From NCBI GenBank assembly GCA_947179485.1, contig OX359246.1, positions 22,134,001-22,198,000 on the forward strand: a stretch of 64,000 bases of DNA. The letters run 5' to 3'. Both the position numbers and the translations under genes were made by a program. Numbering within the stretch: position 1 is the first letter of the stretch; every line of letters begins with the position of its first letter. Below, piece by piece: positions 3,806-56,506 of this stretch. The notes below the pieces were generated by a model. That model ran no database searches, was not told the origin of the DNA, and worked only from the letters and a program-made list of their open reading frames with translations. The stretch comes from Allacma fusca (taxonomy: Eukaryota > Arthropoda > Collembola > Symphypleona > Sminthuridae).

Positions 3806-4457
3806 CACAGTCGGGTCAATTTATAACAGCACTCGCGATGTACATAGTTTTATAGATTTTGGTGAAATTAACGTTGGGGTAATGTGGGAAATTGTAATTG
3901 GGGACTGGTAAAACGTTACCGCTGTGGTAGATGGTAACATTTTGCCATTTTTGCAAATGATTCAATGATTGGGGTAAATTGTAAAGAATTACCATTGCAA
4001 TAAACGGTAAAAAGTTACCATTGCAATAAACGGTAAAACGTTACCATTGGGTTAAATGGTAAAAATTTACCATTGTGGCAAATAGCAGAAATTTACCGTT
4101 TTGGCAAATGGTAAAAATTCACCATTGTGGCAAGTGGTAAAACTTTACCATTGTGGCAAATGGTAAAAATTTACCATTGTGGCAAATGATTCAAATTTAC
4201 CAATGTGGCAAATGGCAGAAATTTACCATTGTGTCAAATGGTAAAAATTTATTATTGTGGCAAATGATAGAAATTTACCATTGTAGCAAATGGCAAAAAT
4301 TTACCATTGTGGCAAAAGTCAAAATGTTACCACTACTGTAACTGTACTAACACAATGTTTCCTAGCGAAACCAAATTTTCCCAATATTTTCCCCCAAAAT
4401 AAAAACAAACCATCCGCTGCATACAAAAGGGATCCTCCATAGCAAGCTCCGACTGTA
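3806..4457. mobile_element. MITE-like element enclosing a 26-bp minisatellite
   Basis: The left end (3808-3840) reads CAGTCGGGTCAATTTATAAC and then AGCACTCGCGATG. The right end, on the complement from 4457 inward, reads TACAGTCGGAGCTTGCTATG and then GAGGATCCCTTTTG. Both begin with CAGTCGG and place a TATAAC/TATGGA block at the same distance. The space between is almost wholly the tandem array at 3860-4335. A TA is visible at the right end (4456-4457); the left flank is CA. This is one of the clearest cases of family ends bracketing an array. Confidence 0.5.
3860..4335. repeat. Minisatellite, 26-bp unit, partly palindromic
   Basis: About seventeen copies of GGTAAAAATTTACCATTGTG plus GCAAAT. 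Each unit contains a near-palindrome, GGTAAA-A/T-TTTACC, so single strands could fold back. Early copies (3880-4070) carry other spacers such as CAATAAACGGTAAAACG. It lies inside the inverted ends at 3806 and 4457. Confidence 0.93.
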
Positions 4458-6018
4458 CACCTCACGCACCCTGAGAATTTCAGAATTATCCCAGCCCCTG
4501 CGCCAGTAGCACCAGTTGTTGTTATTGCTCTATAATAACCTGCATAATGGAGCAACTGCTGTGTGTACGCATTTTTTTCCATATATAATTTGTTACTCTG
4601 TCCGTCCCTGTGCTCCCAATGCTAAAATCATTTAGTTTCCCCACACACACACAAAAAAAACCAAATAAATTGAAAAAAAAAGTCCCTATATCCACTCACA
4701 TTCTCATAACAGCTCTACACCTCAATTCCATTATTACATATTCAAATTCTTGGGTAACATTCCAGAGCCTAATGATAACTTATGAGATAATTAGCCACGT
4801 TTTCCCGCCCCAAAAGGAATTCTCTCCCGAGCCTTGGGAAGCATTCCTTGGAGCCAAGAGCTCTCCTAATTTGCACCTTTTCTCTCAAATCCAATGCAAA
4901 TCCATCAACTGCTCTCAGTCCAATGCTCAAACCTGCTCTGGTTCAGACACAAATCTAATCCCTATATTTTAAATCTTTTTTTTTCCCCATATTTTTTAAA
5001 TACTATTTTCTCCCCCATATTTTAACCACTACAATTTCTGATTCCAACACCTGAAATGCCCCTATGTCTCAAATACCTTTAGAAAAATAGCCCCTATTTC
5101 CACGTTATAATTGATAGTACACTCAAAGTAGAAAAACATTTTTACACTAAAATCTCTCCGTCTGAAAAAAAAAATCCAATAATCTCAAATCTTCCTCGAA
5201 AACCAGTTTTGGGATCCGTAGGATTGAATTGAAATGATTTTGCACGAAAAAGGTGTTTGTATTTATCTCCTCTTATCTCTCTCATCTCTTTCTTTTGTCT
5301 CCCTTGGAAATCGCTACAATAATTGAGCGTGTAAATCCTACGCTGGGCAAGGAACCATCCTGAAATATTTTCAACAAAAGCCCACAATTCTCACGTAAAC
5401 TTTGTGGATTTATCCAAAGAGGAAGATCCCACAGCGTAGGTTTCCTTATCTAATCATCCACAATTGTAGGGAAGAATCCTCTGGAATCAGAGCCAATAAA
5501 TTTCCCTTTTATCAACCTCAATGCCCAAATATGTGAGAGTGGTCAGAAGGCTTCTCAAAGATTTCATACGCAAGGCTTGTACACATAATAAGAATAGGTA
5601 AAAAAAAAATTCTATGGAAAAAAGTTGAAAAGATTTTACATATAAATTCCCTATCTCCATAAATTCCTATAATAAGGAATATATAAACACTTGATTTTCT
5701 GCATACACAAGATTTCAACTTACTTTTGCTCATTTGGGCTTTCGAGATAATAAATTTTTCCCTGATAATTTTTCTCTCTACTTTGAGATCCCAAGATGTA
5801 ACAGTTTTGCCACACTGGAGTTTTGAGAGCCAAAAAAGAAAGAAAGCATGAAAGAGCTCAGAAATAAATTCTCAAGTTTTGTTCGAAAATTTATGGAAAT
5901 GCTCGTAAGAAAAATAAACCAGAATGTTATCGTATACTGGAGCTGTGTCCATTGGCAAGGAGCAGATTGTAAGATTTTTAAAAACAAATACAGGCTTTTA
6001 GCGTCTCAGGAAATTAAT
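4458..6018. other. Gene-free stretch
   Basis: AT-rich DNA with short T and A tracts. The 120-codon frame at 4610-4972 shows no domain, and no signal for an exon is convincing. Confidence 0.5.
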
Positions 6019-6137
6019 TTTTCTCACATTGCCCCATTTAGTAAAATAAGAATTTTTAAAGCTGTTTGATTACATTTAATTTAAATTAACTTGTGAATTT
6101 GGGGGAATTGAGGGCTTTGTTTTAACACTGGACTGTA
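6019..6137 (-). repeat. TA-CAGT family, right-hand arm
   Basis: On the complement, 6137 inward reads TACAGTCCAGTGTTAAAACA and then AAGCCCTCAATTCCCC. About 110 bp from the end comes TTTTCTCACATTGCCCCATT (6019-6038). The same subterminal phrase sits about 90-95 bp from the ends at 38597 and 61573. This shared spacing supports a real arm of the family. No left arm was identified. Confidence 0.45.
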
Positions 6138-6580
6138 TTACTTAGGATTTTAGGCTGGGCGGGTGATAAGGCTGAGAAAGTTTTTGAATATTTATTGTTG
6201 TAGCGTACAGTTCTTCTGAATATACTGGGTCCATGTAGGAACTCCGTAGAAATTAAGCCCTCAGACTTAGACTCTTGATTGTGTCTGTAATAATTCCTTT
6301 CTATAGGGAAATTCATTATTATCTCGTGAGTACAGTATAGAATCTTATTCAGAGATAAGTCTGTCCTTTGGACATGAGAGTTTCAGAGTGCTGGGTGAAT
6401 TAGGGAATTTAAGGAATTTCGAGTTGGGCTGGAGTCATACGTTGTGAGGGGTTTTACATAATAACTGGTAGGATTGGATTTAATTTGGAGATTCTTATGG
6501 TGAGAGATAGGGGAATCCTGTAGGACTAGGAAGTTTAGGGTTTAAAGTGTGAAGGAGGATGGTAACTTTGGGGTAATTAC
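6138..6580. other. Gene-free stretch; weak terminus at 6331
   Basis: Nothing coding. TACAGTATAGAATCTTATTC at 6331 could be a degenerate left terminus for the following array, but it shares only the first six bases strongly. Confidence 0.35.
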
Positions 6581-6589
6581 TTTTGGGAC

Positions 6590-7380
6590 AAGAAATAGCA
6601 CTGTTTTTTAGCACCATGTTTTTAGCGCCATGCTCTTTAGTACAGTTTTTAGCAGCACCTTCTTTAGTACCATGTTTTTTGGCGCCATGTTTTCTAGCAC
6701 CATGTTTTCTAACCCCACGTTCTTTAGCACATGTTTTTAGCACCATGTTCTTTAGTACCATGCTTTTTGGCGCCATGATTTTACCACCATGCTTTCTAGC
6801 CCCACGTTCTTTAGCACATGTTTTTAGCACCACGTTCTTTAGTACCATGTTTTTTGGCGCCATGTTTTCTAGCACCATGTTTTCTAGCCCCACGTTCTTT
6901 AGCACATGTTTTTAGCACCACGTTCTTTAGTACCATGTTTTTTGGCTCCATGTTTTTTTACCACCATGTTTTCTAGCCCCACGTTCTTTAGCACATGTTT
7001 TTAGCACCACGTTCTTTAGTACCATGTTTTTTGGCTCCATGTTTTTTTACCACCATGTTTTCTAGCCCCACGTTCTTTAGCACATGTTTTTAGCACCACG
7101 TTCTTTAGTACCATGTTTTTTGGCTCCATGTTTTTACCACCATGTTTTCTAGCCCCAGGTTCTTTAGCACATGTTTTTAGCACCACGTTCTTTAGTACCA
7201 TGTTTTTTGGCGCCACGTTCTTTAGCACATGTTTTTATCATCATGTTCTTCAGTACCATGTTCTTCAGTACCATGTTTTTTGGCGCCCTGTTTTCTAGCA
7301 CCATGATTTTTAGCTTCATGTTTTTAACACCACGATTTTTGGCGCCATGTTTTCTAGCACCATGTTTTTCAAAAACGTTT
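6590..7380. repeat. Higher-order minisatellite (about 88-bp unit of shorter subunits)
   Basis: The subunits are variants of TTTAGCACCATGTTC. From about 6796 they are organised in a higher-order unit starting CTAGCCCCACGTTCTTTAGC, with copies at about 6796, 6884, 6973, 7062 and 7149 (steps of 87-89 bp). The outer parts have irregular subunits. Several long frames on both strands (up to 136 codons, rich in CFLAP or KNMVLKN) are products of the repeat and not genes. Confidence 0.93.
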
Positions 7381-8761: not shown

Positions 8762-8800
8762 TACAGTCCGAGATGGTTGTAAGGAAGGATGTAAGGTGGG
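8762..8800 (+). repeat. TA-CAGT family terminus before the 9-kb array
   Basis: TACAGTCCGAGATGGTTGTA followed by AGGAAGGATG. The first eight bases and the TTGTAA block fit the family; the tail does not. It lies about 65 bp before the 27-bp array. Confidence 0.35.
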
Positions 8801-8829
8801 GAGGATATGGTACAATTTTAATTATAGTG

Positions 8830-9480
8830 TGGTAAATGGGGGAAATTAACATTGGGGTAAATTCGGGGGGGAATTACAAGTATGGTAACTGAGAGACAAA
8901 TTACCATTATGGGAACTCCCGGGTAAGAATTTGCCATTGTGGTAACTGGGCGAAGTTACTATGAAAGTAAATGGTAACAAAATTACCATTAGGGTGAATG
9001 GTATCAAAGCTACCATTAGTGTAACTGCGGTAACAAAATTACCATTAAGGTAACTAATAACAAAAATACCATGAAAGTAATTTGTATTAAAGTTACCACT
9101 AAAGTAACTACTGGTAACAAAATTACCATTAAAGTAGCTGGTAACAAAATCACCATTAAAGTAAATTGTAGCAAAATTACAGTTAAAGTAGCTGGTAACA
9201 AAATTACCATTAAAGTAGCTTGTAGCAAAATTACCGTTAAAGTTACTGGTAACAAAGTTACCATCGAATTAACTGGTAACAAAACTACCGTTATGGTAAA
9301 TGGTAACATTATTACCATTAAAGTAACTGGTAACAAAATTACCGTGAAAGTAAATGGTAACAAAATTACCATTAAAGTAAATGGTAACAAAATTACCATT
9401 AAAGTAAATGGTAACAAAATTACCATGAAAGTAAATGGTAACAAAGTTACCATTAAAATAACTGGTAAAAAAAATAACGT
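8830..9480. repeat. Minisatellite, 27-bp unit with GGTAAC...TTACC palindrome
   Basis: About twenty-four copies of GGTAACAAAATTACCATTAA plus AGTAAAT. GGTAAC and (A)TTACC are inverted to each other inside each unit. Because 27 is a multiple of three, two frames stay open for 145 and 165 codons, the longest in the window. They translate as simple peptide repeats such as GNKITIKV and have no independent support as genes. The best copies are 9340-9440; the flanks are more decayed. Confidence 0.94.
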
Positions 9481-11237
9481 AGTGACAAAAGCACCAAAAT
9501 TAACACTGTGTCAAACGGAGAGTTACAAAAACAATACATTTTCCTACTCCCATTCCCTTCAATGTTAAAATTAATGTCCCTTCCCAAACCACCTATTTTT
9601 TAGCCATCACTACTGGACTCCCAGCCCGAGTCCACTCAACAAACCCAGGCTCAAAAGCCAAGTCCCAGGACATCTGATTGGGAGGGCTAATGATAAGCAA
9701 ACATTAAATAGTTATTCATATTCGCTCCATAAAAAATGGAAGCGAAAGGCACTTTATGAATATTCAAACCTTCCATTGGCTCCCTACCACTATTTAAATA
9801 AAAACATTTCCGACTCACAACAATATCCATTTGAATTTGAGAAATCGTCCTCCACACAACACACTCACTCCGACACAACTAACACAAAGATTGTCATTCC
9901 AAGAGCTCACAATGCCCCATAGAATTCCCAATTACATGATGACAGATTACCCTCAGGTGATCCGAGTCCCTTCAAAACAAATAAATTCCACACTCTCTCC
10001 GGATTTAAAGGTTCCAAGCTTTATACAGCAACCTCCTTAAAAATAATTCTAAAAATTTCCTACAAATTTCAAAACTCCCGCCCCCCCCCCCGAATACGAT
10101 TTTAAACTCCCAATTACTCTTCGACAGAAATTGATTGTACAGATAAAAAAAAATACAATTAAACTCACTCTCTCACTCTTTCCACTCCTCAATTTATTTT
10201 TTATTTTCTCAAATGATGCAATCCCAGACTTGACAATTGGCTCAGGAATGGGATGCGTGATGACGGCGGATCCTCAGGAAAAAAATCCAGAGTGGAAATT
10301 AAGAATTGAGAGGGATTTTTGCTCCCAATGAGGATACATTCCGAGGCTGGGCTTTACACACCGTACATATAAATAGCCTGTAAATGAGACCACTCTCAAG
10401 TGTACAAACAATGAGAATAATTCCCACGGACACCAATCAATAATAATGAACACAGACGCACAAATAGAATCACACTCTGTGTGTCTACAGAACACACTGA
10501 GGATGTAATAATTATTGCAGGAGCACACCAGATCTTCAATTTTGAAATGTTCCTTTTCAATCCAAATTTTTCTGAACAAATTTTTCCGAACAAATTTTTC
10601 CAAGACAGTTTTTTTTTCTTGTAAATAAAAAAATTCCTAGAGCTTTTAAATGACAATTTTCCTGCCCCCAAAAAACACATACAACGACCCAGTGCACAGT
10701 AAGAACAAATCCCTGGATAATTTGGAAGCTAAAAAAATCCAAGTCCTACTCCACGCATATAAAAGGTCTGATTAAAGTGTGAACTGTAAGTTTTGTTAGG
10801 GATTGTCGGAAGGCTTGTGTTTTTGAGACTTGTTTTATTTTTCTCTCCTCACACTCTTTCTCTGTCTCACTGTCCGCAACAACACTGACACACACACTCA
10901 AACACACACAATCACATACACACGCACACACACTCACTAGGACAATTAGTGTCCTGTGGAAAGTCAATAAATTGCAGTTTTTTCCTCTCCCTCTCTTAAC
11001 TTTTTCAATGTCCTTTGACCAACACTATTTTTTTTGAGAGAGAAATGTTCAGCTCCAGAAGGTGTTTCAAGCCGATTGTTACTTCTGGCTCTGAAACAAA
11101 CCCTTTGGACCCAGTCCGGTTTCTGAACCCTGGCACTCCACAGAGAAGATTCAGGTGAGAGATGATGAGGATCTGATAAAAATCAAAAAAGGGTCCATGC
11201 CGAGTGACAGTGTTTAAAGCTCAATTCTTTTCCACCA

Positions 11238-15129: not shown

Positions 15130-15960
15130 TTGAGTGTAACGTGGTGCTTATGCTGGAACTTTAATATTGAGGAGATTTTATAGCTTTAAAATGTTGTGCA
15201 GCTTATATTTTTAAACTGATGCGTGCATTACACCTTTGATACATCTTTAATATAGTGCACACCCAATATGTTTAAAATTGTGCATACCTTGTATCTTTGA
15301 GATGGCGATCTGGTACACAACCTGCATGTTTAAAATTGTGCACACTTTGTATCTTTAAGATGGTGCTCTGGTGCACACCTTATATCTCTGACATGGTGCT
15401 GTGGTGCACAATTTTTATCTCTGACATGGTGCTCTGGTGCACAATTTTTATCTCTGACATGGTGCTCTGGTGCACACCTTATATCTCTGACGTGGTGCTC
15501 TGGTGCACACCTTATATCTCTGACGTGGTGCTCTGGTGCACACCTTATATCTCTGACGTGGTGCTCTGGTGCACACCTTTTATGTTTAAAATTGTACGCA
15601 CCTTGTATCTTTAATATGATGATGTGGTGCACAACCTGGACGTTTAAAATTGTACATACCTTTTATTTTTAATATTGTGCTCTGGTGCGCACCTTATATC
15701 CCTAACATGGTGATCTGGTGCACAACTTTTATGTTTAAAATTGTGCACACCCTATATCTTTACCATGGTGCACACCCAATTTGTTTAAATCCATGCACAC
15801 TTAATATCTTCAATATGTTGCCGACATTGTATTTTGAACATAGTACACTCACTATGTTTAAAATTGTGCACACCTTAACACTCTTTAACATATTGCACAC
15901 TTCCTATGTTTAACCTGGCAAACGCTCCATATGTTTAAAATTGTGCACACTTTACATCTT
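15130..15960. repeat. Minisatellite, 33-bp core unit with GTGCAC palindrome
   Basis: In the core (15355-15575) the unit is GACATGGTGCTCTGGTGCAC plus CTTATATCTCT, in about seven good copies. The flanks carry shorter, more diverged units of the form TTTAAAATTGTGCACACC. Every good unit holds a GTGCAC palindrome. The 33-bp period keeps both strands open for about 100 codons. These frames are repeat artefacts. Confidence 0.93.
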
Positions 15961-16099
15961 TATCATTCGGTCCGCCTGATATGTTAAACAGCGTCCACAC
16001 CATATAAGTGTAACATAGTGCATTCCCTGTATATTTTGCATTGTGCACCCCCCATATCTTTATCAACCTACTTACCTCAAATGTGTAACACTGTTCAAA

Positions 16100-16151
16100 A
16101 CAAAAATTCTGTCCCTTCCAAGGGATGCACCTCCAACAGAGCTGCACTGTA
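16100..16151 (-). repeat. TA-CAGT family terminus after the 15-kb array
   Basis: From 16151 inward the complement reads TACAGTGCAGCTCTGTTGGA, then GGTGCATCCCTTGGAAGGG. The start and the CCCTT block fit the family; the central TATAAC block is changed. It faces back toward the 33-bp array. A weak left partner (TTCAGTTCTGGGAATG) sits near 15046. Confidence 0.4.
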
Positions 16152-24382: not shown

Positions 24383-25017
24383 TACAGTAAAAATGTGATG
24401 AGTGACATTACCAATAAAATCAATTGTTTTTAGGGGGAACTTCTTCAAAAGATTTTTAGGGCTCTTGTAAAATTTGTCCTTAAATTTTCAAAGGTCATGT
24501 AAAATTTCGACTACAATTCGAACGCTTGGAAAATGTAGCCTAAATTTTGATGGTTTGTAAAACTTTACCTGCGTTTTGAAGATTTGTAAACGTTTGGCTA
24601 ATTTCTGAAGGCTCGGGAAATTTTGCGAACATTTTAAAGGGAATTGTAAAAATTGCCCTTAATTGTTAAAGGGAATTGCAGAATTTTCCCTTAAATTTTA
24701 AAGACTTCTGCCCCAAAATTTTACTCTTTGCCTCTAAATTTCCAAAGTTAGTGTAAACGTTTCCCTAAATTTTGAGTGGAAATTTTAAAGGCTAGATTGT
24801 CCCTAAATTTTCCAAACTATTGTAAGATTTTCCTTAAATTTTCAAGTTTCGGATAATTTTCTCCAAAAATTTCAAAAAACAGCTGTGCTCCTTCAAAGTC
24901 AGACCTATTGCAACCTGTTCCCTGAAATGTCAATACAATGATTTGACTTCGGACCCAGCCAGAAAGAACCCAACGGAAACAGCAAACTATAAGATTTGAG
25001 CCCATTAGTTGACTGTA
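24383..25017. mobile_element. Possible MITE-like element enclosing a degenerate array
   Basis: The left end at 24383 reads TACAGTAAAAATGTGATGAG. The right end, complement from 25017, reads TACAGTCAACTAATGGGCTC. Both carry the TA-CAGT start facing inward, but similarity beyond it is low, so the pairing is tentative. The middle (24440-24860) is a worn tandem array. Confidence 0.25.
24440..24860. repeat. Degenerate tandem array, unit about 30 bp
   Basis: Repeated variants of AAATTTTCCCTTAAATTTT with GG-GAATTGTAAAA or AAGG-TTTGTAAAA spacers. Units are much diverged but the alternation of TTGTAAAA and CCTTAAATTTT recurs about every 30-60 bp. It shares the CCCTTAAATTTT core with the arrays at 30.7-31.2 and 40.4-40.95 kb. 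Confidence 0.7.
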
Positions 25018-27845: not shown

Positions 27846-30340
27846 TCTTCACAATCATCCCAATTTTTCATAAATGGGTTTAAATCCTTAAATTTCCACA
27901 CTGTTTACAACTGACCTGGGATAAAACTTCCTTTACATTGATTTTGCTACATACATATTTTTCCCAATACAAAACATACCCCAGAATGTACCACAAACGT
28001 AGATTACAAAAATTACTTGTAAACTTTTAGCATAAAATCAGCACAATCTTCCTTTTCCCTTTGAACTCATTTGTAAATTTTTTTTTCCCTGAACAAATAT
28101 AATAATACAAATACTATCGAAACTTCCGCTTCCTCCCTCATCGCCCAATCTGCATCTCCCCAGTTACATCCTGCCTCCTGAGAACTTCGCAAAATTAAGG
28201 CTCCGGCTATCACAGCTCAAGCTACACACATTCCTATGAATCATATAGGTCTGTGGTTGGCAAAGCCCAGTTTTTTCCCGTAATTTGTATTAATCCCATT
28301 TGAAAGTTACAAATGACTTTTAAATCATATAATCACCTCATGTGTTGTACTTATTAAAGCGATGATTGCCTTTCTTAAATATCTCACCGTTATTTCCCCC
28401 TCAGGTTCTACCCAAGCTCTTTTACAATATTTACCTTAATTTTTTAAAACATCCATTTCCTTTTTTTCCCGCCACCCGCAAGAATTGATCCCGAACTTAA
28501 GGAACGCTCGGGTAAATTCTGAAATAACGTCTGTTCAAAGTCTGTAAATAGTTTCCGGTAAAACTTCCGAACAAAATAGCGTTCCGACAATTTTCCCCAA
28601 TTTTAATAAATCGAAATTTTCAAACGGAATTGTTCACACCTTGTTTTTGACGTGTTTGAGACGTTTTCTTACAGGAAGAGATAAAATCTTCAAAAGATTG
28701 CCTATAACTGGTCAATTTTTCCTGGGGCTTTCAAGTATCCGGGGAGGAAATGGGTCCTATACATTTTACTATAATTATTACTTATTTTTATTATTTTTGT
28801 TTTGTTTTTTATTTCTACACAATTGAATACCCTGACTTGTGTTGTGGATATTGGGAGTTGTCGTGCGGGAGGATTTGCGTGTGGGGATGATCAGCACTGG
28901 TGTGTAAAAAGTGTATGGTGTGTGTGTGTGTTGTGAAAAGAAAACCCACACTCTCACACATTATCCCGGACCCATTTGACAACAAATGGTAATAATTCTT
29001 TGACATAACAGGAAGTGCCAGTGTTACTTATACATTGGGCTTTTTTTCTTTTTAGAGGGGCTTGAGGCTCTTTTCTTCTCCCACACGATATACATAGCAC
29101 ATAACAAACAGAGGCTATGTACATATGTCCCTACAAATTGTACTCCTTGAGTATATTTTCAGACACATTTTTAGGCTCTGAAGGATTTCCTTTAGAAATA
29201 TAGCACTACGGATTTTTTCTATTTATCTGCATATGTACATATGTATGTACGTACTGTATGAGGATACCCAGCGTATTTCCCATTCCCTTTCTTACAATTA
29301 GTACTGAGGAAGAATAGGGGAACACACACAACCTTAACTCAGCTCCAGAGATACATGTGGGTAAGGAGCATTGAATAAAATGCAGGGATTGGAATGCGTC
29401 CTTTTTCCCTACGTTGAGTGAAAGAAACCTTTGGAGAGTTTTACGTTCAACGAACAGTTGTTAGTAATTTCTCATTCATTTCAATTTTTTCTCCTCCTCT
29501 TCCTCTTTTTAATCCTCCTCCTCCTCCTCTCAAATTTCTAATAGGAATTCCATACAAATTGCCAGGCCTGAGATATAGTTTTTAAAATTTATTAATAATT
29601 AGTAAAAATAAAAGAATTTATTTTATTTTTATTTTGCCAGAGTAAGTACAGTGTATGTATTTTTATGCGTGTAAGGATATGTGTAAGGGTTAAAAAAGAA
29701 AGGACAGGAATAAAAGTCATATCATTGGGAATGAACAATTATTTGCCGGAGATTATCTCAGCCCAACATCCACTCATTCCATTAACTCCCGCTGACTCCC
29801 TGCCAAGGAATGGGCCCCAGACCTCGATGTATTTTATGGATGTACATAACAAATATGAAAAAGTCATCCTGTTAATAACAAACAAGCCGTAAGAAAAGAG
29901 AGAGAGAGAGAAAAAAAAAAGAATGAAGAGTCAAGAAGGAATATAGCCAGAGGAGATTCTCTTCCTCATGTGGACTTGTATCTACCTGTGGATGCATGCA
30001 TGTATGTACATATGTACATGTGGATACTCATTCGGGGCCATAAAGATGAAGTCACAAGTCACTCGGACGGTGGAAGAATTAATTTGAGCCCCACAATCCC
30101 ACCAGTGGGCTAAAAGGAGTCGGGAAAGTGTGCAGAATGGAAGAGGAATGGTCCTTATCATAAATGTATTTGAATACAATACAAACTAAATATAAGAGTT
30201 GCTCTTTGAAGTTGAGAATTCTCGTGCAAAATGCGGCAGTTCAAGTTTGAGTAATGAAATTGGACGGTGCTGTATAGTTCTTTGGGAAATGTAGAGTGTT
30301 GAGTAAATATTAGGCTTATGGAAGAATTATGTTGAGAGAG
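27846..30340. other. Gene-free stretch
   Basis: AT-rich DNA with a TG-rich tract at 28917-28932, a GA run at 29898-29910, (CTC)n-like sequence at 29493-29530, and CATATGTACATATG-type palindromes at 29229-29252 and 29995-30020. No gene or RNA was recognised. Confidence 0.45.
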
Positions 30341-30379
30341 GATTTGAACAGGGGGTGGTTATAGTGAGAGGGGACTGTG
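30341..30379 (-). repeat. TA-CAGT family terminus
   Basis: The complement reads CCACAGTCCCCTCTCACTAT, then AACCACCCCCTGTTCAAATC. It aligns with the family through CACAGTC, CTATAACCA and CCCCCT, although the outermost TA is CC here. Confidence 0.5.
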
Positions 30380-30558: not shown

Positions 30559-31363
30559 TACAGTTGGTTGTTGATGGGATGGAGACTTTCAAAAGGGATT
30601 TGTTTCCTTGGGAAATTGTTTGAAGAGATTCCTGCTTCAAAACAATTTTAAATTTTGGGAAGTTTGGATTTTTGAGTAATTTCTAATTTTAAGGGTAAAT
30701 TTAAACTACATTTAAGGGTAAATATAAGGGTGGTAACTATACCGCAAATTTAAGGGCAAATTTAAGGTAAATTTAGGGTGGTAAATTTACCGCAGATTTA
30801 AAAGGGCAAATTTAAGGGCAAATTTAAGGGCAAACTTAAGGGTAAATTTAAGGGCAAATTTAAGGGCAAATTTAAGGGTAAATTTAAGGGTAAACTTAGG
30901 GTAAATTTAAGGGTAAATTTAAGGTTAAATTTAAGGTAAATTTAGGGTGGTAAATTTACCGCAAATTTAAAAGGGCAAATTTAAGGGCAAACTTAAGGGC
31001 AAATTTAAGGGCAAATTTAAGGGTAAATTTAAGGGTAAACTTAGGGTAAATTTAAGTGTAAATTTAAGGGCAAATTTAAGAGTAAATTTAAGGTAAATTT
31101 AAGAGTAAATTTATGGTAAATCTATGGTAAATTTAAAGTAAATCTATGGTAAATTTAAAGTAAATTTATGGTAAATTTATGGTAAATTTATGGGTAATTT
31201 TAAAGTTAATTTAATGGTTAATTTAATGGTAATTTTAAAGTTAATTTAATGGTTAATTTAATGGTAACTTTAAGGGCAACTTTAATAATGATTCTGGGGC
31301 TTTTTAAACACCAGATAGTAGTAACAATTTTTAGGTTGGATGTTATAAAATGGAGTCATTGTA
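30559..31363. mobile_element. MITE-like element enclosing a 12-bp minisatellite
   Basis: The left end reads TACAGTTGGTTGTTGATGGG at 30559. The right end, complement from 31363, reads TACAATGACTCCATTTTATA then ACATCCAACC, which keeps the family's TTATAACA block. TA flanks both ends. The left arm is diverged, so the pairing rests on the orientation, the TA and the right arm. The array occupies about two thirds of the interior. Confidence 0.4.
30690..31280. repeat. Minisatellite, 12-bp unit with an approximately 170-bp higher-order repeat
   Basis: The unit is GGGTAAATTTAA / GGGCAAATTTAA. A block opening with GGTGGTAAATTTACCGCA recurs at about 30777 and 30947 (170 bp apart), with a related, changed copy at 30729. 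GGTAAATTTACC in that block is a perfect palindrome. The tail (31090-31280) degrades to AAATTTATGGT and AATTTAATGGTT. Read on the complement, the core is TTTGCCCTTAAATTT, as in the 40.5-kb array. Confidence 0.92.
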
Positions 31364-33061: not shown

Positions 33062-34230
33062 AAACCAGCAGATTTGGTTGGTTCCATCTTGAGATGCTGA
33101 AATCGTGATGGCTCTTACACAAACCCATAAAGTGTCATTCCCAAATCAAATCACTGATGACCTCTTGAGATGATCTTTGTGAATCTACATCTTTTAATAT
33201 ATCGACCAGGTTCAAATCTACAGTTGGTTCAATCACACTCACACACACACACAAAAATCTATATTGCTTCTTTACAATTGTAACTGTATTTTTTACACGC
33301 TCGGGATCCAAATCTTCCTAACACATTGTGCAGATGAACTACTGCCACAAAAACTGCCCCTCAAAAATTCCAACCGCACTGCCGGATATTGGGCTCAAAA
33401 TTTTCTACAGTTGACTATTTTCATAAAGGCATCCTCCGCCCCTAAAATTTTATGCCAACTAAAATCCCATTAAAATTTCAAAGCAAAGAAACCTTAAAAT
33501 TTCTTTAAAATTTTTAAAGGCAAAAATTTGAAAAAATTTTGTAATTTTTTGAAAAACATTTTTGGTCTTGTATAATATGAGCGTACTGTATATGGTTTGC
33601 ATTCATGCAACAAATTTTTGCTCTGATTTCTTAAGTGTTGGCTTCAAATTTGACAGTTGATTTTTTAAACGGAGGATTTTGTGGAGAGTTTTATAAAAAA
33701 ATGCCCTCAAAATTTAAACCCTTTTTTATGCTTATGCCTAACATTGGGAATATTCTGAGGGATATGGATTTTAATACATGTGTGGTAAAGGCATTATGGT
33801 AAGCAGAGGCTGTGCATACGATAAATACGCTAACGGGACTGCTCTCAAGTTTCTAATCGAGCCCATCAAAAAATCACAATGCTTTTGTATATCTGCGTGT
33901 ATGCAGTCAAATGGTTTTTTTTGTATGGGCTTTTGTCCCTTTGTACGTATTAACTATCCTTGTGGTTTTCTGTGCACTTGCTTCCAGTCTCCGATCTCTG
34001 AGTGACTCAGTCACTCACTCATTCCTGTCTATGTAGATGTTGGAGCCACGCACACACACACACACAAGTGTTTCGTAATAAGTTTTTGATCCCATACACC
34101 CGGTCAGATGAGAGGGACTGATGCTTGTTTTCAGTAGTCCTATTGTTGTCACGTATGCAAATTAAAATGCATGTAGTGCAAGGAAATTTACAAGGAACAA
34201 CTTGAGTAATAAATTTTTGTGGATGAAAGG
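33062..34230. other. Gene-free stretch
   Basis: Contains a CA run (34051-34067) and a Cys-rich 75-codon frame at 33778-34005 (MCGKGIMVSRGCAYDK at its start) that I cannot assign. No gene is supported. Confidence 0.4.
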
Positions 34231-35060: not shown

Positions 35061-36210
35061 GGGCTTTGAATGGTAACGATCACCCCGAATGAAGTTATGT
35101 GGAGATTTGTTCCTTGGGCTGCTGTAATAATTTCCCCTGCATTTGTACCTATACAAAATTTGCTCTATAGCCCTATTGTACTCCTCTGCTACAGATTCCA
35201 CCCTATACGGACATATATAGTAGGTCAAGCCATGTGTGTTTTCCTAATCTGGGGTTAAGATCAGGAAGAAGGTGAACATTGACAGGAGTCAATTGGCAGG
35301 AGAATTTGTTTGAAAAATTCATTAGGATTAGTAGCCATACAGACAGAGAGAGAGATCAAGGGACAAAGATATGCACGCTCACTATACACACGTCCTACAT
35401 GGAACAATCTATACTCAATTTGATGCGGAATCCCACCAGTGGAACATGTTCTGTAACACCATTCAAGTCGTTACTCACGAGGGAAAAAAGACTTGGACTC
35501 TGGGGAATCTCTTGTTAAAAATTATGGGACGCTCCCAAGTCTCAGCTTCTTATCACATGCGAAAACATTTGTAGACAATTTAAAGACACACGCACTTTCC
35601 TTCGCCCATAATCCCAATAAAATTCTCCTCACAAAATTTACTCGAGCAATTTTGATAACAAAAAGAGCATTGACTCTTCAAAAAATACGAATTTCTCGCA
35701 TTACCCCAATTTTAAAGCTCATTTTCCCCTAAATTTCCACCTGCCCCAAATATTTGTCATCAAATCTGCGGGCACATCCTGAAAAATGAATCAACTCTGA
35801 GTAATACCAAAGTGTGAAAAAGGATGATTCATTTCAAAGGAAGAGGTAATCGCCGAGATTAGGTAATTTGCATCGGAAGGAAATTCGATTAGGAACTCAA
35901 ATATTGGTTCCGGCCTGATTGTTAGATTTCCGAAGCTTTGGGGCAAACTGGGACTAAGTGGAAAAATAAATAAGAGGAAGGAAGGGCGTTTTTGTCCGCC
36001 CTCAACAATCACTCATCAACTCTCGAGGAATGACCGCAAATGTCATTCGTCATCGATTAACCCTTTTGAAGAATAATCTACAGTGCCTTCGATGAATGCA
36101 AGATCCTCTGAAAGAGAATTGAATTTTGAGATTGAATTTTGTTCGAGTAGTTTCTAAATGTAAAATTTTACTGATTGGGGCAAACTGAGAAAATTTGTAA
36201 AAAAAAGGGT
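35061..36210. other. Gene-free stretch apart from a zinc-finger-like scrap
   Basis: Apart from 35371-35574, no signal. A GA-rich tract at 35343-35354 is short. Confidence 0.45.
35371..35574 (+). pseudogene. Decayed C2H2 zinc-finger fragment
   Basis: Residues 35-66 run THEGKKTWTLGNLLLK then IMGRSQVSASYHMRKH. This is the layout of an inter-finger linker (H-x-G-K/E-K), a finger whose two cysteines have become leucines (TLGNLL where C-x-x-C would stand), and an intact helix end H-M-R-K-H. A stop follows one codon later. It is the most finger-like of the four scraps, but broken. Frames around it do not continue the domain. Confidence 0.35.
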
Positions 36211-36255
36211 TGCAGTCAAGAGGGTCCGTTATAGAGGGATCCGACTCGATGTGAA
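36211..36255 (+). repeat. TA-CAGT family terminus
   Basis: GCAGTCAAGAGGGTCCGTTA followed by TAGAGGGATCCGACTCG. It carries CAGTC, GTTATAG and a GGATCC shared with the copies ending at 4457 and 57993. Confidence 0.5.
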
Positions 36256-38329: not shown

Positions 38330-38597
38330 TACTGTCGACTCGATTTGTAAGCGCAACCCTTAAAATCCAGAAATTGCGCAAAGGATTTCAAGCTTTGTTT
38401 TTTAATCACAATGTATTTTTGGGGTAAGGTGAGAATTTTACAAAAATTTGCCCCTAAATTACCCCGTTTAACATTAATATTTTCTCCTGCAGGGAAAAAG
38501 TCTCACACTGCCCCATTTACCCCAAAATTTTCGGGGAAACCTTGAAATTTGGATTTTATTATTTTAGGGAGGTTGTTATAGCAAAATTAAACTGTTC
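38330..38597. mobile_element. Near full-length copy of the TA-CAGT MITE-like family
   Basis: The left end reads TACTGTCGACTCGATTTGTA, then AGCGCAACCCTTAAAATCC. The right end, on the complement, reads ACAGTTTAATTTTGCTATAA, then CAACCTCCCTAAAATAAT. Both arms carry a subterminal phrase about 90 bp in: TTTTGGGGTAAGGTGAGAAT on the left (38416-38435) and TCTCACACTGCCCCATTTAC on the right. The phrases are inverted to each other. The layout matches the element at 61573. There is no coding capacity, so movement would need a transposase from elsewhere. Confidence 0.55.
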
Positions 38598-40435: not shown

Positions 40436-40950
40436 TTAGGAGGGGGAGAGAAATTTGCCCTTAAAATTTGAGCCGCATAAAACAAAATTTTGCCCTTAAA
40501 ATTTGAGCCGCATAAAACAAAATTTTGCCCTTAAAATTTGAACCGCATAAAACAAATTTTGCCCTTAAAATTTGAGCCACATAAAACAAAAATTTGCCCT
40601 TAAAATTTGAGCCACATAAAACGAAAATTTGCCCTTAAAATTTGAGCCACATGAAATAAAATTTTGCTCTTAAAATTTAAGCTACAGGAAATAAAATTTT
40701 GCCCTTACAATTTGAGCCACAGGATATAAAATTTTGCCATTAAAATTTGAGCAAACAGAAATAAAATTTTGCCCTTACAATTTGAGCAAACAGAAATAAA
40801 ATTTTGCCTTTAAAATTTGAGCGAACAGAAACAAAATTTTGCATTTAAAATTTGTGACCGAGGAAATAAATTTTGCCCTTAAAATTTGTGACTGAGGAAA
40901 TAAAATTTTGCCCTTAAAATTTGTGACGCATGAAATAAAATTTTAAGGGT
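40436..40950. repeat. Minisatellite, 34-35-bp unit with TTTGCCCTTAAAATTT core
   Basis: About fifteen copies of AAAATTTTGCCCTTAAAATT plus TGAGCCACATAAAAC. Spacers change in blocks: GCCGCATAAAAC, then GCCACAT, then GCAAACAGAAAT, then GTGACTGAGGAAAT. This suggests successive local expansions. Confidence 0.94.
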
Positions 40951-41319
40951 TTCCTGCTTCCCGGAAAATTTCTGTTAGAAAATAAAGTCGGAAATAAAAA
41001 CGGAGGGAATAAAAAGTTGAAGAAAGTTTTCTGAGGAAAATTTTCTCGGACAGGAAAAAAGGGTTGAGGGATCTGAGAAGTTGTAAAAATATTTTTTTAA
41101 TTTTAAGCAACACAGTCATAAAGACGCGTATAATTAGAAACTTGGAGCGGGGGTTTAATGGCGAGGGAATAGAAAACTATTGTCATCACTATGAAATTAA
41201 ATGGGAATTTCTTCCGTTAAATTAAAATCCTCCTTTCCATGCCAGGGAATGCTGGAAAAGGGAAACATCATTAGGGAAATATACAGATACTGTCCGCAAT
41301 GGGAGCAATTTACAGGGAG
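40951..41319. other. Gene-free stretch
   Basis: No feature between the array and the terminus at 41364. Confidence 0.45.
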
Positions 41320-41364
41320 CGTGTTTTGATGATAGGGGCTCCGTTGTAGGGAGATTTGACTGTA
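41320..41364 (-). repeat. TA-CAGT family terminus after the 40.5-kb array
   Basis: The complement from 41364 reads TACAGTCAAATCTCCCTACA, then ACGGAGCCCCTATCATCAAA. It matches in TA-CAGTC, CCTACAACGG and CCCC. It faces back toward the array. Confidence 0.55.
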
Positions 41365-41920: not shown

Positions 41921-42660
41921 TCCCAAAATTAATGAAAATTTCAAAATTTTGATACAGGGCAATCGTGGAAATTCCGGAAAACCTGGGAAAATTTGATGAT
42001 TTATTAACGTTAGTAAATTTGGTAACATTTTGTAAAATTTGCAAATATTTAGAAATTTGCCATTTAGTGAAATTTGCCCAAATTTAGTAAAATTTGCAAA
42101 CATTTAGTGAAATTTGCAAACATTTAGTGAAATTTGCAAACATTTAGTGAAATTTGCAAACATCTAGTGAAATTTGCCAAAATTCAATGAAATTTGCAAA
42201 ACTAATAAATTTTGCCCTCATTTAGTCAAATTTATTAAAATTTAATGAACTTTACCAAAATTTTACAATTTTCGGGAAAATTTTCCGAAATGTGAAGCTT
42301 GCTCAAATATAATTTAATATTCGCCAAAATTTAGTAAAGTTTGACAAACTTTTGCGAAATTGGTCAAGTTATGCCAAAATGAGTGATTTGGCCTACATGT
42401 AGTGAAAATTGACAACATTTAGAAAAATCTGGCAAATTTTAGTGAATTTGGTGAACATTTTGGGAAATTCGCCAAAGTTTGTTTAATTGGCCAAAATTTT
42501 GCCAAATTAAGCCAAAATGTATAGGCAAATTCGCAAAAATATAGGGAATTCGTTAAATTTTCCAATATTCTGAAATATTCGTCAAAATCTTGTAAATTCG
42601 CCAAAATTTGGAAATATTTCCCAAAATTTAACAAATTTCCGTAATATTTACAGAAATGTT
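41921..42660. repeat. Minisatellite, 20-bp unit
   Basis: Best copies at 42080-42180 read AAATTTGCAAACATTTAGTG, five nearly identical in a row. On both sides the array decays to AAATTTGCCAAAATTTAGT-like units that stay recognisable to about 42640. Confidence 0.9.
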
Positions 42661-42824
42661 TAAAATTTTCTAAAATATACTTCTCTAAATTTCAGGAAAC
42701 CGTATTAAATTTTGCATTTTGTTCAAACTCTAAAACTATTTAACCAACAATTAAATATAAAACACATTCTCCCAAAAGCCTTTATTACTCCAAATTTCTA
42801 TGAGATTACGCAACACAGCTCTTA

Positions 42825-42855
42825 GGGATTCCCTCATAACAAAATTCGACTTTGG
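42825..42855 (-). repeat. TA-CAGT family terminus after the 42-kb array
   Basis: The complement reads AAAGTCGAATTTTGTTATGA, then GGGAATCCC. AGTCGAA, GTTATGA and GGGA(A)TCCC match the copies ending at 4457 and 36211. The outermost bases are AA in place of CA. Confidence 0.45.
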
Positions 42856-47492: not shown

Positions 47493-48072
47493 TTAGTGAT
47501 TCCAAAAAATTAAATTTTTGTGGCGCCCTCTGGAGGGAATTTTTGGGAATCTCCATAGGGGCTTGTGTATATTCCACCCGAATGTACAAATGAGTTCCTG
47601 GATGAAGACAAACGTGTTGTAAAAAATTTGGATGGGATAAAAGCTGAGGAGAAGATCTTCAATGCACTTCCAGGCTTTAGCATTATTTGTATTTTCCTCT
47701 GCCTGGGAAAGATTTCGGAGGGGAAGGACTTCCTCCGTTTCTTCCCTTTGCAAGGCTCGTGTTGGATTTGAGAGATTTCTCCAGAGACCCATATTTTCAT
47801 AGAGCTTGTTATACAAGTGCTCATCTTCCTCCAGGCATCCCCACAATACAGATCCTATACACGCTATTTCTTTCCTCTCGAATTTCTGTTGTTCTTCTGG
47901 GTTTATTCATTCTGCCCCCTTTAAAGGAAAATTCATCACAAAATTCTAACTTTCTGTGGGAAAGATTCTTTCCCTGGACGTTTTCACAGGCAAATCTCAT
48001 TCGGGAAGGGTAATTACGATTACTGGGGAAAATTAGTGAAAATGTTGGAGAAAATCTCAATTTTTTATGCAA
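47493..48072 (-). other. Coding-like patch, open in several frames
   Basis: Five overlapping frames of 68-117 codons cover this patch on both strands. The minus-strand frame 47846-47493 is the most protein-like, rich in Glu/Leu/Asn (for example CLEEDEHLYNKLYENMGLWR at residues 4-23). I recognise no family. No strong acceptor or donor could be pinned down. TACAGATCCTATACACGCTA at 47846 on the plus strand also hints at the dispersed terminus. An exon is possible but unsupported. Confidence 0.15.
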
Positions 48073-48550
48073 AATTTTGGAGAAAGAACCCCCAGTTTCC
48101 CTAAAATAATTGGATAAATTGTTCCAATTTGTTTAGGCAAAATTTTAGTGAAAGGTGTCCCAATTTTTTAGGAAACATTTTGGAGATAGAGCCCCAACGT
48201 TTTATGGAAAATTTTGAGGAAAGAGTCCCAATTTTTGTAGGAAAACGTTTTAGGAAGTAACCCCAATTTTTGTAGGGAAACTTTTGGGAAAAGAGCTCCA
48301 AGTTTTTAGGAAAAATTTTGGGAAAAGAGCCCCAATTTTTTAAGGTAGCGTTTTGGAGAAAGAGCTCTATTTTATGGAATATTTTGGGGAAATAACTGCA
48401 ATTTTTGTAAGGAAAAATTTGAGCAAAGAGCCCCAATTTTTGTTGGGAAAATTTTGGAGACAGAGCCTCATTTTTTAGGGAAAATTTTGGAGAAAGAGCC
48501 CCAATTTTTTAGGAAACATTTTTGGGAAAAAGACGCATTTTTTAGGGAAA
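48040..48550. repeat. Minisatellite, unit about 34 bp
   Basis: About fourteen copies of GGAAAATTTTGGAGAAAGAG plus CCCCAATTTTTTA, with length variation of a few bases between copies. The CCCCAATTTT core is shared with the 32.4-kb array. Confidence 0.9.
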
Positions 48551-48631
48551 ATTTAGGAAACTTGCAAGCATTGAATTGAAAGAAACACAAGAATTAATAC
48601 AAGAAGAGATAATTTGAGGGAATTTGTATTG

Positions 48632-48663
48632 GAGGGGGTCCCTCCACCTGGGAGTCCACTGTA
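48632..48663 (-). repeat. TA-CAGT family terminus after the 48-kb array
   Basis: The complement from 48663 reads TACAGTGGACTCCCAGGTGG, then AGGGACCCCCTCC. It keeps TA-CAGT, GACTCC and the CCCCCT tail; the TATAAC block is replaced. Confidence 0.45.
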
Positions 48664-51704: not shown

Positions 51705-52150
51705 TGGAAAATAAAATTTTACGATAAAAATTGGGAAAATCTTTTTTTTTTCTAAATTGGGTAAAAATTGTTGGGAAATTTTGTTTTTCAAAATTGGGCA
51801 GTAAATATTGGGAAATTTTTGTTTTCAAAATTGGGAGATAAATATTGAAAAACTATTTTTTTTAAATTGGACGGTAAATATTAGGAAATTTTGTTTTTCA
51901 AAATTGGGCGGTAAATATTGGGAAATTTTGTTTTTCAAAATTAGGCTGTAAATATTGGGAAAACTTTGCCTTCAAAATTGGGCGATAAATATTGGGAAAC
52001 GTTTTTTTTAAATTGGGGGGTAAATATTGGGAAATTTTTTGTTTCAAAATTGGACGATAAATATTGCAAAATGTTTTGCTTCAAAATTGGGCGCCAAATA
52101 TTGGAAAAATTTTTGTTTCAAAATTGGGCGATAAATATTTTGAAATTTTT
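51705..52150. repeat. Minisatellite, 36-37-bp unit
   Basis: About twelve copies of AAATTGGGCGGTAAATATTG plus GGAAATTTTGTTTTTC. The array ends 15-35 bp before the family terminus at 52186. Confidence 0.93.
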
Positions 52151-52186
52151 TTTCAAGGGGTTCCATCATAAACAGCGTCGACTGTA
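52151..52186 (-). repeat. TA-CAGT family terminus after the 52-kb array
   Basis: The complement from 52186 reads TACAGTCGACGCTGTTTATG, then ATGGAACCCCTTGAAA. All three family blocks are present, and it abuts the array. Confidence 0.6.
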
Positions 52187-52794
52187 AATGTCAGAGCCCC
52201 TGGAATTATGACGAGTCCAAATGAAAGAGCAAGTTGAGAGTTGGAAGAGATCTGGAGGGGGTCAGAAATGATGATGAATTTTTCCAAAGCCAGTGCCCAC
52301 ACCCAATCTCTGCCTAGACTCAGATGCTCATCTTCTCATTTGCATTATTCTAATCAGCACTAATGAGTTGAGGGAATTCTTTGGAAAAAAAATCCTTTGT
52401 ATTAATTCATTTATTTAATTTTTTTTGCAAGTATCTATGTATATTGTAATATAGGGATGAACCTCAAGTCTAAAGATTTTTTACAAATATTGAATCACAT
52501 TCTAAAAACAGTTCACTTTTGTATCAAACCCTGGGTAATAATTATTCCGATGCATTTCTTCTCTTTGGAGCTGAAAAAATTTCAGGCGCACCTTTTCTTC
52601 TTATTCCTTTAAAGGCATTTAATTTTTACAGTGGGTTCTATTTTCGAGAGCAACTCTTGAGAAAATGTTTTTCAGAAATGGAAAATTTGTTTTAAAATTC
52701 TAGTTTTTTTGTTAAATTTTTTTTAAGAATTTCCTTTTTTTTTGTAAATATTTCTTTGGAAAAAAATGTGGGAAAAATTTTGTAAGTTTTGGAA
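52187..52794. other. Gene-free stretch
   Basis: T-rich, no gene. Confidence 0.45.
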
Positions 52795-52831
52795 TTTTAA
52801 GGGGGTGTTATAGACATGAGAATTTTCTGTA
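52795..52831 (-). repeat. TA-CAGT family terminus
   Basis: The complement from 52831 reads TACAGAAAATTCTCATGTCT, then ATAACACCCCCTTAAAATTCC. It gives one of the best copies of the CTATAACACCCCCTTAAAATT block. Confidence 0.6.
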
Positions 52832-53322: not shown

Positions 53323-53342
53323 TACAGTCAAGTGGGGTTCTT
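53323..53342 (+). repeat. TA-CAGT family terminus before the 54-kb array
   Basis: TACAGTCAAGTGGGGTTCTT faces the following array. Only TA-CAGTCAAG is a firm match. Confidence 0.3.
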
Positions 53343-53434
53343 GGAAGAGAAGATGATTCAGTTAAGTTTAAATTGTATTATGAATTCGTTTTCAATGCTC
53401 AAAAGTGTTGGGGATTTTGAGGGACAATTTTGAA

Positions 53435-54265: not shown

Positions 54266-54289
54266 TCGGAAATGTAAACTAAACTCCAA

Positions 54290-54717: not shown

Positions 54718-54905
54718 TGCAGTAAATGTTTGTTATAACAGAGTCCCTTGAAAATGATCCTTTTTGAATAGAACAGTTTTTTAAAATATTTGCCAATATT
54801 CATATTTGAAATAATGTAAAATTAGGGGTAAATTTTGACCCTTAATTTTTGTGTCGATGAATTACGAGTGAATTTTGAAGGGGGCTGTTATAAAGGGAGT
54901 GTGTA
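54718..54905. mobile_element. Short two-armed copy of the TA-CAGT MITE-like family
   Basis: The left arm reads CAGTAAATGTTTGTTATAAC, then AGAGTCCCTTGAAAATG. The right arm, complement from 54905, reads TACACACTCCCTTTATAACA, then GCCCCCTTCAAAATTC. The arms align well over about 30 positions around TTATAACA and CCCTT(C/G)AAAAT. At 188 bp with no coding capacity this looks like a complete small inverted-repeat element. Confidence 0.6.
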
Positions 54906-55530: not shown

Positions 55531-55639
55531 TACAGTGAATTTACTTTGAACTGGGAAGTGTGTAAAAAGGGGTAAGTTTTTTGGGCACAATTTGGACAAA
55601 ATGTTTCAAAGTTAGTATAAAATGTGACAAATTGTAGAA

Positions 55640-56310
55640 AATTGACTGAAAATCAGGAATGAAGGAAATTGTTCAAAAACTGCCTAGGAAATTGTCGATC
55701 AAATTGCATTGTTGGAAATTGTCGAAAAATAAGAATTGTCAAAAATTGTCAAAAATCGTCGCAAATCGTCGAAAATCGTCGAAAATCGTCGAAAATTGTC
55801 GTAGATTATCTAAAAATGTCAACAACCGACAAAAATTGTCAAAAGTCGACAAAAATCGTCGAAAATCGTCCAAAATTGTCGAAAATTATCTAAACTTGAC
55901 ATAAATCGACAAAAATCGTCCAAAATTATCGAAAATTATCTAAACTTGACATAAATCGACAAAAATCGTCCAAAATTGTCGAAATTTATTGAAAAACAAA
56001 AATTATGAAAGATTATCGCAAAATAAAAGTTTTAGCAACTTGAACTGACCTAAATATTTGGTTTGTGGAATATTGTCGAAAAACACGGATTCTGGAAAAT
56101 TGTCAAAAAAATAACATTTTAAGAAATTGTCAAACAATAGAAATAGCCAAAATTTCCAGTCCTGTCAAATTGTAAAAGATTTAATCAAAAGTAACAATTG
56201 CAAGAAATCGTTTAAAAAAACCGTTGTTCGAAATCGCCAAAAAATTTAGACGTAGACAAATTATAGCAAATTGTCAGAAATTGCAGGAAATTGTCTAAAA
56301 CTTAACATTG
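55640..56310. repeat. Minisatellite, 10-bp unit with a 50-bp higher-order repeat
   Basis: The basic unit is AAAATCGTCG / AAAATTGTCG; the cleanest run is 55750-55800. At 55870-55969 a 50-bp block containing AAATTATCTAAACTTGACAT is present twice in tandem, differing at a couple of bases. Beyond 56000 the units are diverged, keeping AAATTGTC. Confidence 0.93.
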
Positions 56311-56314
56311 CTGG

Positions 56315-56450
56315 GAGCGGTTTAAGAGTTACCACTTGGTTAAAAAGTCGAATATGTACCACTTGCGTAAATTGTGAACAAATTACCGTTGTGGTAAATC
56401 ATGTACCAGATACCATTGTTGTAAATTGGTAAAAAATTCTGAGAAACAGT
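56315..56450. repeat. Relic of a TTACCATTG-type array
   Basis: Four or five worn units such as AAATTACCGTTGTGGTAAAT and GATACCATTGTTGTAAATTG. They resemble the 26-bp array at 3.9-4.3 kb and lie inside the same bracketing ends as the 10-bp array. Confidence 0.6.
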
Positions 56451-56506
56451 TTCCATTGCATAAGCTATTTTGAACAGGACTACACTTTAAAACACAGTTC
56501 ACTGTA

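Follow-up and report, generated by a model that had tools for sequence, protein, structure and literature searches.

Minisatellite arrays within probable pogo/Tigger-type miniature transposable elements of the springtail Allacma fusca

A 64,000-nucleotide stretch of chromosome 2 of the globular springtail Allacma fusca (C8:22134001-22198000 of the 392.7-Mb genome; hereafter the window) contains 16 minisatellite arrays, several of which lie between inverted ends that begin with TA-CAGT. It is quite likely that these ends belong to a pogo/Tigger-type family of miniature inverted-repeat transposable elements (MITEs) carrying internal tandem repeats, and that the arrays lie inside the elements, some having been transported and some having grown locally. 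One transposon family probably brought some arrays to new sites, while other arrays may have arisen within it. A preliminary description of the same DNA had suggested that a non-autonomous transposon either carries tandem arrays or gives rise to them. This suggestion is supported by like ends at four of eight independent relatives of one array and by a resemblance to the ends of transposase-bearing pogo-type elements; the family left unnamed at that time is assigned here, on sequence resemblance, to the pogo/Tigger type.

Array edges were set by hand from tandem-repeat output, and the resulting 16 arrays were used for the per-array counts and for the rotation tests with the external profile. 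Each array was surveyed within 450 bp, at a threshold of 8, with an external profile built from 25 ends outside the window (consensus TACAGTGnACTCTCnnTATAAGAGAnCCCCT). Both ends were found at four arrays, one end at six, and none or only a weak one at the remaining six. Three loci had already been described as bracketed by two ends (3806/4457, 30559/31363 and 55531/56506), and each of these ends indeed scores at least 9. The element at 3806..4457 (652 bp; left end 3806 on the plus strand, right end 4457 on the minus strand; scores 15.5 and 23.9) holds a 26-bp array of the TTTACCATTGTGGCAAATGGTAAAAA type, in which identity at a lag of 26 is 0.66-0.90 across the interior and 0.28-0.46 near the ends. 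The element at 30559..31363 (9.1 and 11.4) encloses an array of 12-bp units at 30684-31285, and that at 55531..56506 (10.8 and 14.0) has a 10/20-bp array on its left and 27-bp units of an ACCATTG type on its right. The fourth, at 47906..48663, has a weak left end (8.9) and a stronger right end (20.1) around an array of 34-35-bp units at 48062-48560; beyond itself, this array has only two weak matches in the genome, both at one place on C10. A further locus that had been proposed as weakly bracketed, 24383-25017, fell away, as its ends score -1.3 and -8.9.

At six arrays a single inward end was found. On the left side, an end at 1041 (plus strand, 19.9) is followed by a 33-bp array at 1180-1366, with no partner end found (1041..1366), and an end at 1930 (plus strand, 15.4) by a 26-bp array at 2026-2510, with no partner found by the profile (1930..2510). 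On the right side, all on the minus strand, the array at 15154-16092 (25/33/58 bp) is followed by an inward end at 16151 (18.3; 15154..16151), the 35-bp array at 40454-40944 by an end at 41364, at 420 bp (29.5; 40454..41364), the 20-bp array at 42006-42674 by an end at 42854, 180 bp past the array (19.6; 42006..42854), and the array at 51709-52153 (37/74 bp) reaches an end at 52186 (51709..52186), whose score of 32.5 is the highest among the window hits listed for the external profile. At this last array a left hit at 51346 is also present, but it forms a 96-bp pair with 51441. A genome search with the array at 15154-16092 returned only its own place, and that with 40454-40944 returned six weaker matches elsewhere, 66-71% identical. 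The earlier list of arrays with at least one nearby end was therefore right for those at 1.2, 2.1, 15, 40.5, 42 and 52 kb, with both ends now seen at 48 kb. It did not hold at 53.5 kb, where the left TACAGT at 53323 scores -5.7 and the end at 54905 is part of another element, 188 bp long; the array there (53.4 kb) has 17 weak matches elsewhere in the genome. At 8.9 kb, the plus-strand left end at 8762 that precedes a 27-bp ACCATT-type array at 8842-9520 (8762..9520) is weak and sub-threshold, with a score of 6.9. Consequently, the view that the window's arrays are element interiors is borne out for four arrays, plausible for six and unsupported for the other six.

The case for transport comes from relatives of the 3806-4457 array elsewhere in the genome. 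A search with window positions 3790-4470 gave 63 matches, all of which, apart from the window's own, fall in the array part of the query. Ten matched loci were taken, of which one was the window and two overlap, leaving eight independent loci that were picked regardless of ends. With an end profile trained on the window and on transposase ends, six inward and no outward ends were found within 260 bp of these eight arrays at a threshold of 12; four loci have at least one inward end and two have both. When an exact TACAGT is accepted as a partner, four of the eight (L042, L045, L046 and L047) have an end on either side of the array, and they share one layout, in which a terminal signal is followed by a degenerate stretch, the array, and then the mirror order. 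In these four and in the 3806-4457 element, all detected units point the same way and occupy a single block in the middle, flanked by terminal signals of about 31-35 bp. Because four of eight loci found by homology carry like ends amid unique flanks, the 3806-4457 array probably moved as element content. A genome-wide pattern count points the same way: TACAGT faces a RYYATTGNGGYAAA motif 41-101 bp away at 27 places (reversed control 5), whereas the outward form occurs at 9 (reversed control 7). The 27 include four array-internal cases, one C1 place (43.66-43.71 Mb) counted three times and L045 counted twice, and the 9 include one array-internal case and have visible letters for five; removal of array-internal and repeated places leaves about 20 inward against 8 outward.

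The units themselves carry two kinds of information. The period across the eight loci is 25-27 bp (L041 has 51, which is 2 x 25.5), and within the window homology links the units at 3968, 8956 and 56367 (z 5.9-8.7; the 8956-type array scores z 6.5 against 3968 and 8.7 against 56367), so that the earlier statement that the arrays differ in sequence from one locus to the next holds only in part. For 154 of 184 units, the nearest unit lies in the same locus; mean distances, over the eight loci and the window's own, are 0.01-0.21 within loci (L047, 0.01) and 0.20-0.35 between them. Local growth of arrays also took place, as judged from this closeness within loci and from the two arrays with few or no relatives. 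Stable hairpins were considered as a general property of the units and dropped, since only 2 of 11 units tested pass z -2, namely 9363-9416 (z -4.4) and L045 (z -2.4); hairpins are therefore no general explanation.

These observations can be arranged into the following model. The window would hold many old copies of non-autonomous pogo/Tigger-type elements that start with TA-CAGT and whose terminal signals extend over about 31-35 bp; in the longer copies the interior would sometimes be a minisatellite, so that arrays lie within elements and not alongside them. One array lineage, with a partly palindromic unit of 26-27 bp (ACCATTGTGGTAAATGGTA), would already have been inside the element when it spread, because homologous arrays lie between like ends at sites that are otherwise unrelated. 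The element may then have carried the array, or several of its units at the least, to new sites through cut-and-paste in trans, and the similarity of ends suggests that a transposase with CENP-B_N, HTH_Tnp_Tc5 and DDE_1 domains, encoded by elements with similar ends, could have served this mobilisation. After insertion, arrays would grow and homogenise in place by slippage or unequal exchange, which would account for the observed closeness of units within a locus and for array cores being regular while their edges are worn. The arrays at 15 and 48 kb would represent probable births in situ from element sequence. Since like ends enclose unrelated unit types, a broader version can be put forward tentatively, in which the family acts as an "array nursery": the AT-rich interior of any copy might become a minisatellite of its own, and some array-bearing copies might later be retransposed.

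It is also possible, although on balance doubtful, that growth in place is the whole story, with elements moving free of arrays and the arrays growing after insertion from a shared short seed. This overlaps with the transport model, and the likelihoods of the two are not exclusive. The short element at 36079-36249, which holds a single unit copy, would fit such a course, as would the closeness of units within loci (above all at L047), the 15-kb array without relatives and the 48-kb array with almost none, and several end-like sequences elsewhere that have the unit motif 41-101 bp inward (first 80 bases seen). However, homology with a period of 25-27 bp over eight loci would then require many independent expansions of the same unit length, which favours a contribution of transport.

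The orientation of ends also speaks for arrays as element interiors. Within 150 bp of the 16 arrays, the external profile finds inward and outward ends in ratios of 12/2, 10/2, 8/0 and 7/0 at thresholds of 8, 10, 12 and 15, with a rotation P of 0.0002 at each. A distant-end profile, made from 14 sequences (ends separated from arrays by more than 700 bp, together with other loci), has 49 hits where about 8 would be expected; of those no farther than 300 bp from an array, 11 face inward and 2 outward (rotation P for the difference 0.0004), and within 500 bp the numbers are 15 and 8 (P 0.03). Against the window's own rich background, and with a window-trained profile, the best inward ends are special (Fisher P 0.0003) and outward ends are not (0.80). 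Outward hits within 450 bp of some arrays lie at 3500, 16473, 30379, 51441 and 52171. At a threshold of 12, end density is 0.594/kb in the window and 0.044/kb in 180 kb of sampled loci. These come from a comparison sample of 20 loci of 10 kb each; L026 was dropped from later profile counts and L018 was left out of the density comparison, as it had been used in profile training. Separately, L026 (C12:36000001-36010000) consists of 10 kb filled by a 13-bp satellite. In the sampled loci, none of 11 arrays has an outward end within 300 bp. The inward-end pattern at arrays is real but local, and the window region is a regional hot spot of old elements. The window has an end density roughly 4 to 40 times that of the sampled loci, depending on the threshold, and six places with relatives of the 3806-4457 array lie within 100 kb to its right, at C8:22.2-22.3 Mb.

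The same density invites the alternative that elements merely prefer to insert beside independent satellites, in AT-rich, TA-rich, open or unselected DNA. That the window is dense in arrays and ends alike would be expected on this basis, as would the six of 16 arrays with no end or a weak one. Nevertheless, insertion beside an array predicts an outward end between the inward end and the array, while at a threshold of 12 only inward ends occur nearby, both in the window (8/0) and at the array relatives (6/0); in addition, homologous arrays recur between such ends amid unrelated flanks. Preferential insertion is thus improbable.

Two of the relatives differ in structure. L044 (C8:27331920-27333056) and L048 (C10:8533995-8535516) are arrays of 25-bp units with two halves in opposite orientation; their main array rows are 84-99% regular according to Tandem Repeats Finder, no ends lie within 260 bp, and they are satellite-like outgrowths of the 25-bp unit. 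Their opposed halves recall foldback elements, in which tandem repeats belong to long inverted termini as in Tetris and Galileo of Drosophila. Yet five elements have a unidirectional central block, and L044 and L048 themselves are without a nearby profile end, making a foldback origin very improbable.

The end signal can be recognised from exact words alone. TACAGT occurs 85 times in the window against 22.6 expected, a count reached by none of 100 shuffles. Within 400 bp of arrays, exact TACAGT faces inward 16 times and outward 3 times; this count used merged Tandem Repeats Finder rows (18 window arrays) instead of hand-set edges, and the results agree. The corresponding numbers in the 20 sampled loci are 8 and 4. 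Of the hexamers that share its composition, 54 reach at least 15 hits, and among these TACAGT has the largest difference between inward and outward counts (17), closely followed by TGCAAT (16). Composition cannot produce such an asymmetry, because TACAGT and its reverse complement share their base composition; a column-wise comparison of TACAGT with near-miss hexamers gave a blurred picture, as the control contained a satellite. A mixture model run on 219 TACAGT sites from 60 starts yields an end class that reads approximately TACAGTSnAnTCTnnTTATAAnRGMnnCCCT, the best start being a consensus typed after ends had been read. In an alignment of 37 window ends, conservation fades after about 35 bp and is absent before the TA (positions 1-33 are conserved partly because of how the ends were chosen). 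T is present at 31 and A at 34 of these ends, a flank that is partly so by construction because most seeds were chosen by TACAGT. Right ends with TA include 4457, 56506, 31363, L042:1994 and L047:1962, while L045:806 and L046:2058 lack it.

The MITE character is seen in short elements, which when paired in the window mostly measure about 170-205 bp. Those without an array are 52627..52831 (205 bp; scores 22.2 and 9.5; similarity between its ends p 0.24), 54718..54905 (188 bp; left end 20.7; ends mutually similar, p 0.008), 56927..57109 (183 bp; 13.2 and 17.8; p 0.98), 33406..33590 (185 bp; 13.6 and 12.9; p 0.85), 30175..30379 (205 bp; 13.2 and 22.4) and 38330..38596 (267 bp; 17.9 and 16.5; p 0.06). 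In the second of these, the right end falls at 54908 according to the profile (pair 54718/54908), and 54905 itself scores -7.9. The element at 36079..36249 (171 bp; 14.5 and 21.9) has ends that are not mutually similar (p 0.20) and contains a single ACCATT-type unit at 36174 (unit score 9.9), which may be an array seed. Pairs spaced 80-320 bp apart in the window are inward in 11 cases (two overlapping) and outward in 2. Genome-wide, one strict pattern recovers 324 inward-paired elements of 171-201 bp and its reversed control none. No coding capacity was noticed in the non-autonomous copies of the window. Four paired-end elements among the matches listed lie exactly 3960 bp apart on C1 (36975439, 36979399, 36983359 and 36987319) and are probably part of a large tandem repeat that swallowed one element copy. 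Accidental proximity of decayed TACAGT-like words to arrays is hardly credible for the whole set in view of the rotation tests, the hexamers of the same composition, the outward controls and the 324 pairs against 0, although several low end scores and the mostly unlike partner ends are in line with it and single weak ends remain exposed to it.

The assignment to the pogo/Tigger type builds on transposase-bearing loci. The DDE_1 domain (PF03184) has at least 160 matches in the genome, and 12 of these loci were compared with the window ends. A matching pair of TACAGT ends surrounds the transposase gene at 2 of the 12 (L029 and L032), and the window profile matches ends at five (L031, L032, L033, L036 and L039; E 0.003-0.007). 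Pieces of L029 and L033 have both HTH_Tnp_Tc5 and DDE_1, and CENP-B_N was seen at L029 only, with a score of 21.1, just below the cut-off of 21.2. On these sequence matches, the set CENP-B_N/HTH_Tnp_Tc5/DDE_1 is taken as the pogo/Tigger architecture. CAGT ends are usual for Tigger elements, whereas Helitrons have TC...CTRR ends and insert between A and T; the TA-CAGT ends thus argue for a class other than Helitrons with central tandem repeats. Like pogo/Tigger elements of the IS630-Tc1-mariner group and their MITEs, the springtail family shows a TA target, short ends and hundreds of short copies, together with a CENP-B_N, HTH_Tnp_Tc5 and DDE_1 transposase in elements with similar ends. Unlike such MITEs, some springtail copies hold minisatellites. 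Most pogo families are described, in the available excerpt of one account, as having ends of up to 40 bp and TA duplications (PMC7386202).

Several results weigh against these elements forming one family with arrays as its cargo. Compared with random TACAGT-anchored pieces, the two ends of one element are significantly alike (p 0.05) in only 5 of 17 pairs: L042 (p 0.001), 54718-54905 (0.008), 16958-17524 (0.03) and the transposase elements L029 and L032. The other 12 pairs are no more alike than random pieces, among them 3806-4457 (p 0.43), 30559-31363 (0.53), 55531-56506 (0.07), L045, L046 and L047. Because direct similarity failed in these 12, a family profile was needed, and the non-similar pairs are putative ends by family resemblance and position only; the rarity of similar ends within one element implies either that the elements are old or that their ends evolved apart. 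The external profile is itself not independent: four of its ends come from the transposase elements L029 and L032, but 20 of the 25 were first picked with a window-derived matrix and one (L018) stems from the mixture model. Among the window's arrays, those at 6602, 46087, 49834 and 53420 have no end within the surveyed distance, the one at 32286 has only a weak end (8.5), and beside 8842-9520 an outward end at 8741 (10.7) outscores the inward one at 8762.

Similar exceptions exist outside the window. At four array relatives (L041, L044, L048 and L049) the profile detects no end within 260 bp of the array; a weak outward hit (9.1) lies just beyond, at 266 bp, in L041, and outward-facing copies of exact TACAGT occur at L045:866 and L049:1279. 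Of four independent relatives of the 40.5-kb array, one has an inward and one an outward end. In the sampled loci without L026, an inward end was found at just one of 11 arrays, and it is weak (9.8); the arrangement is therefore no genome-wide rule. Statements reaching beyond the window draw on the sample of 20 loci, on 12 loci with array relatives that are independent of one another, and on the pattern counts. With regard to pogo, the five transposase-locus matches share nearly one and the same end, the ends of L029 are unmatched by the window profile, and a profile of transposase ends, less sharp because four inner TACAGT stretches had been mistaken for ends, recovers no more than two ends of the window at E <0.1 (51441, 0.001; 41364, 0.03). 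No unit copies scoring at least 5 were found in the 12 transposase loci. Finally, no empty TA site was seen when the joined flanks of nine elements were searched against their own assembly: with 11 candidates scored, all 18 matches were the elements' own two flanks. As these flanks match only themselves, the loci are not segmental duplications. Overall, the observation of inward ends was confirmed in part, at many arrays, with the six that have none or a weak one and the locus 24383-25017 as the part that was not.

Two other features of the window may be mentioned. The 15/89-bp array at 6602-7369 overlaps a minus-strand open frame of 136 codons (region 6495-7369; no end within 450 bp), and positions 58541-60759 contain a cluster of long, diverged inverted repeats with arms of 43-96 nt that are 71-88% complementary. 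An Rfam scan of the window gave nothing at gathering scores.

Tandem repeats on MITEs are already known from frogs, moths, bivalves and bacteria, as far as the available excerpts of these reports indicate. A Xenopus MITE has lineage-specific tandem repeats, lepidopteran MITEs carry (GTCY)n, and bivalves, including oysters, have pearl-type elements (PMC9659126, PMC6947457). As described in these excerpts, such MITEs with hitchhiking repeats resemble the present family in linking a small non-autonomous DNA element to a tandem repeat. They differ from it in that the springtail is a new host, that units of 10-37 bp vary among copies of one end family, and that the arrays fill much of the element. 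A Porphyromonas gingivalis MITE has, according to the excerpt, an internal minisatellite (PMC4596501); the likeness to this bacterial element, as described, lies in a minisatellite within a MITE. The foldback elements Tetris and Galileo are described in part of the corresponding texts as having internal tandem repeats able to seed satellites (PMC4079207, PMC3573991), and the Galileo repeats as holding extra transposase binding sites (PMC4079207). As far as these texts go, their repeats sit in long inverted termini, whereas those of the springtail lie in one central block. What is new, on the excerpts available, is the case in Collembola; among the matches listed from the open-access literature, judged by titles and the openings of abstracts, the springtail case was undescribed. 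Its notable feature is the presence of several unit types under one end family.

These findings tie the origin and spread of minisatellites to a bounded unit. With both borders of an array defined by the transposon ends, arrays at separate loci become comparable as copies of one ancestor, and transport can be told apart from growth after insertion. The springtail genome gains a transposable element family with 324 short copies, and its annotation a caution that tandem arrays and MITEs are not always separate things. If the interiors of any copies could indeed give rise to private arrays, a large share of the minisatellites in this part of the chromosome would trace back to a single transposon family.

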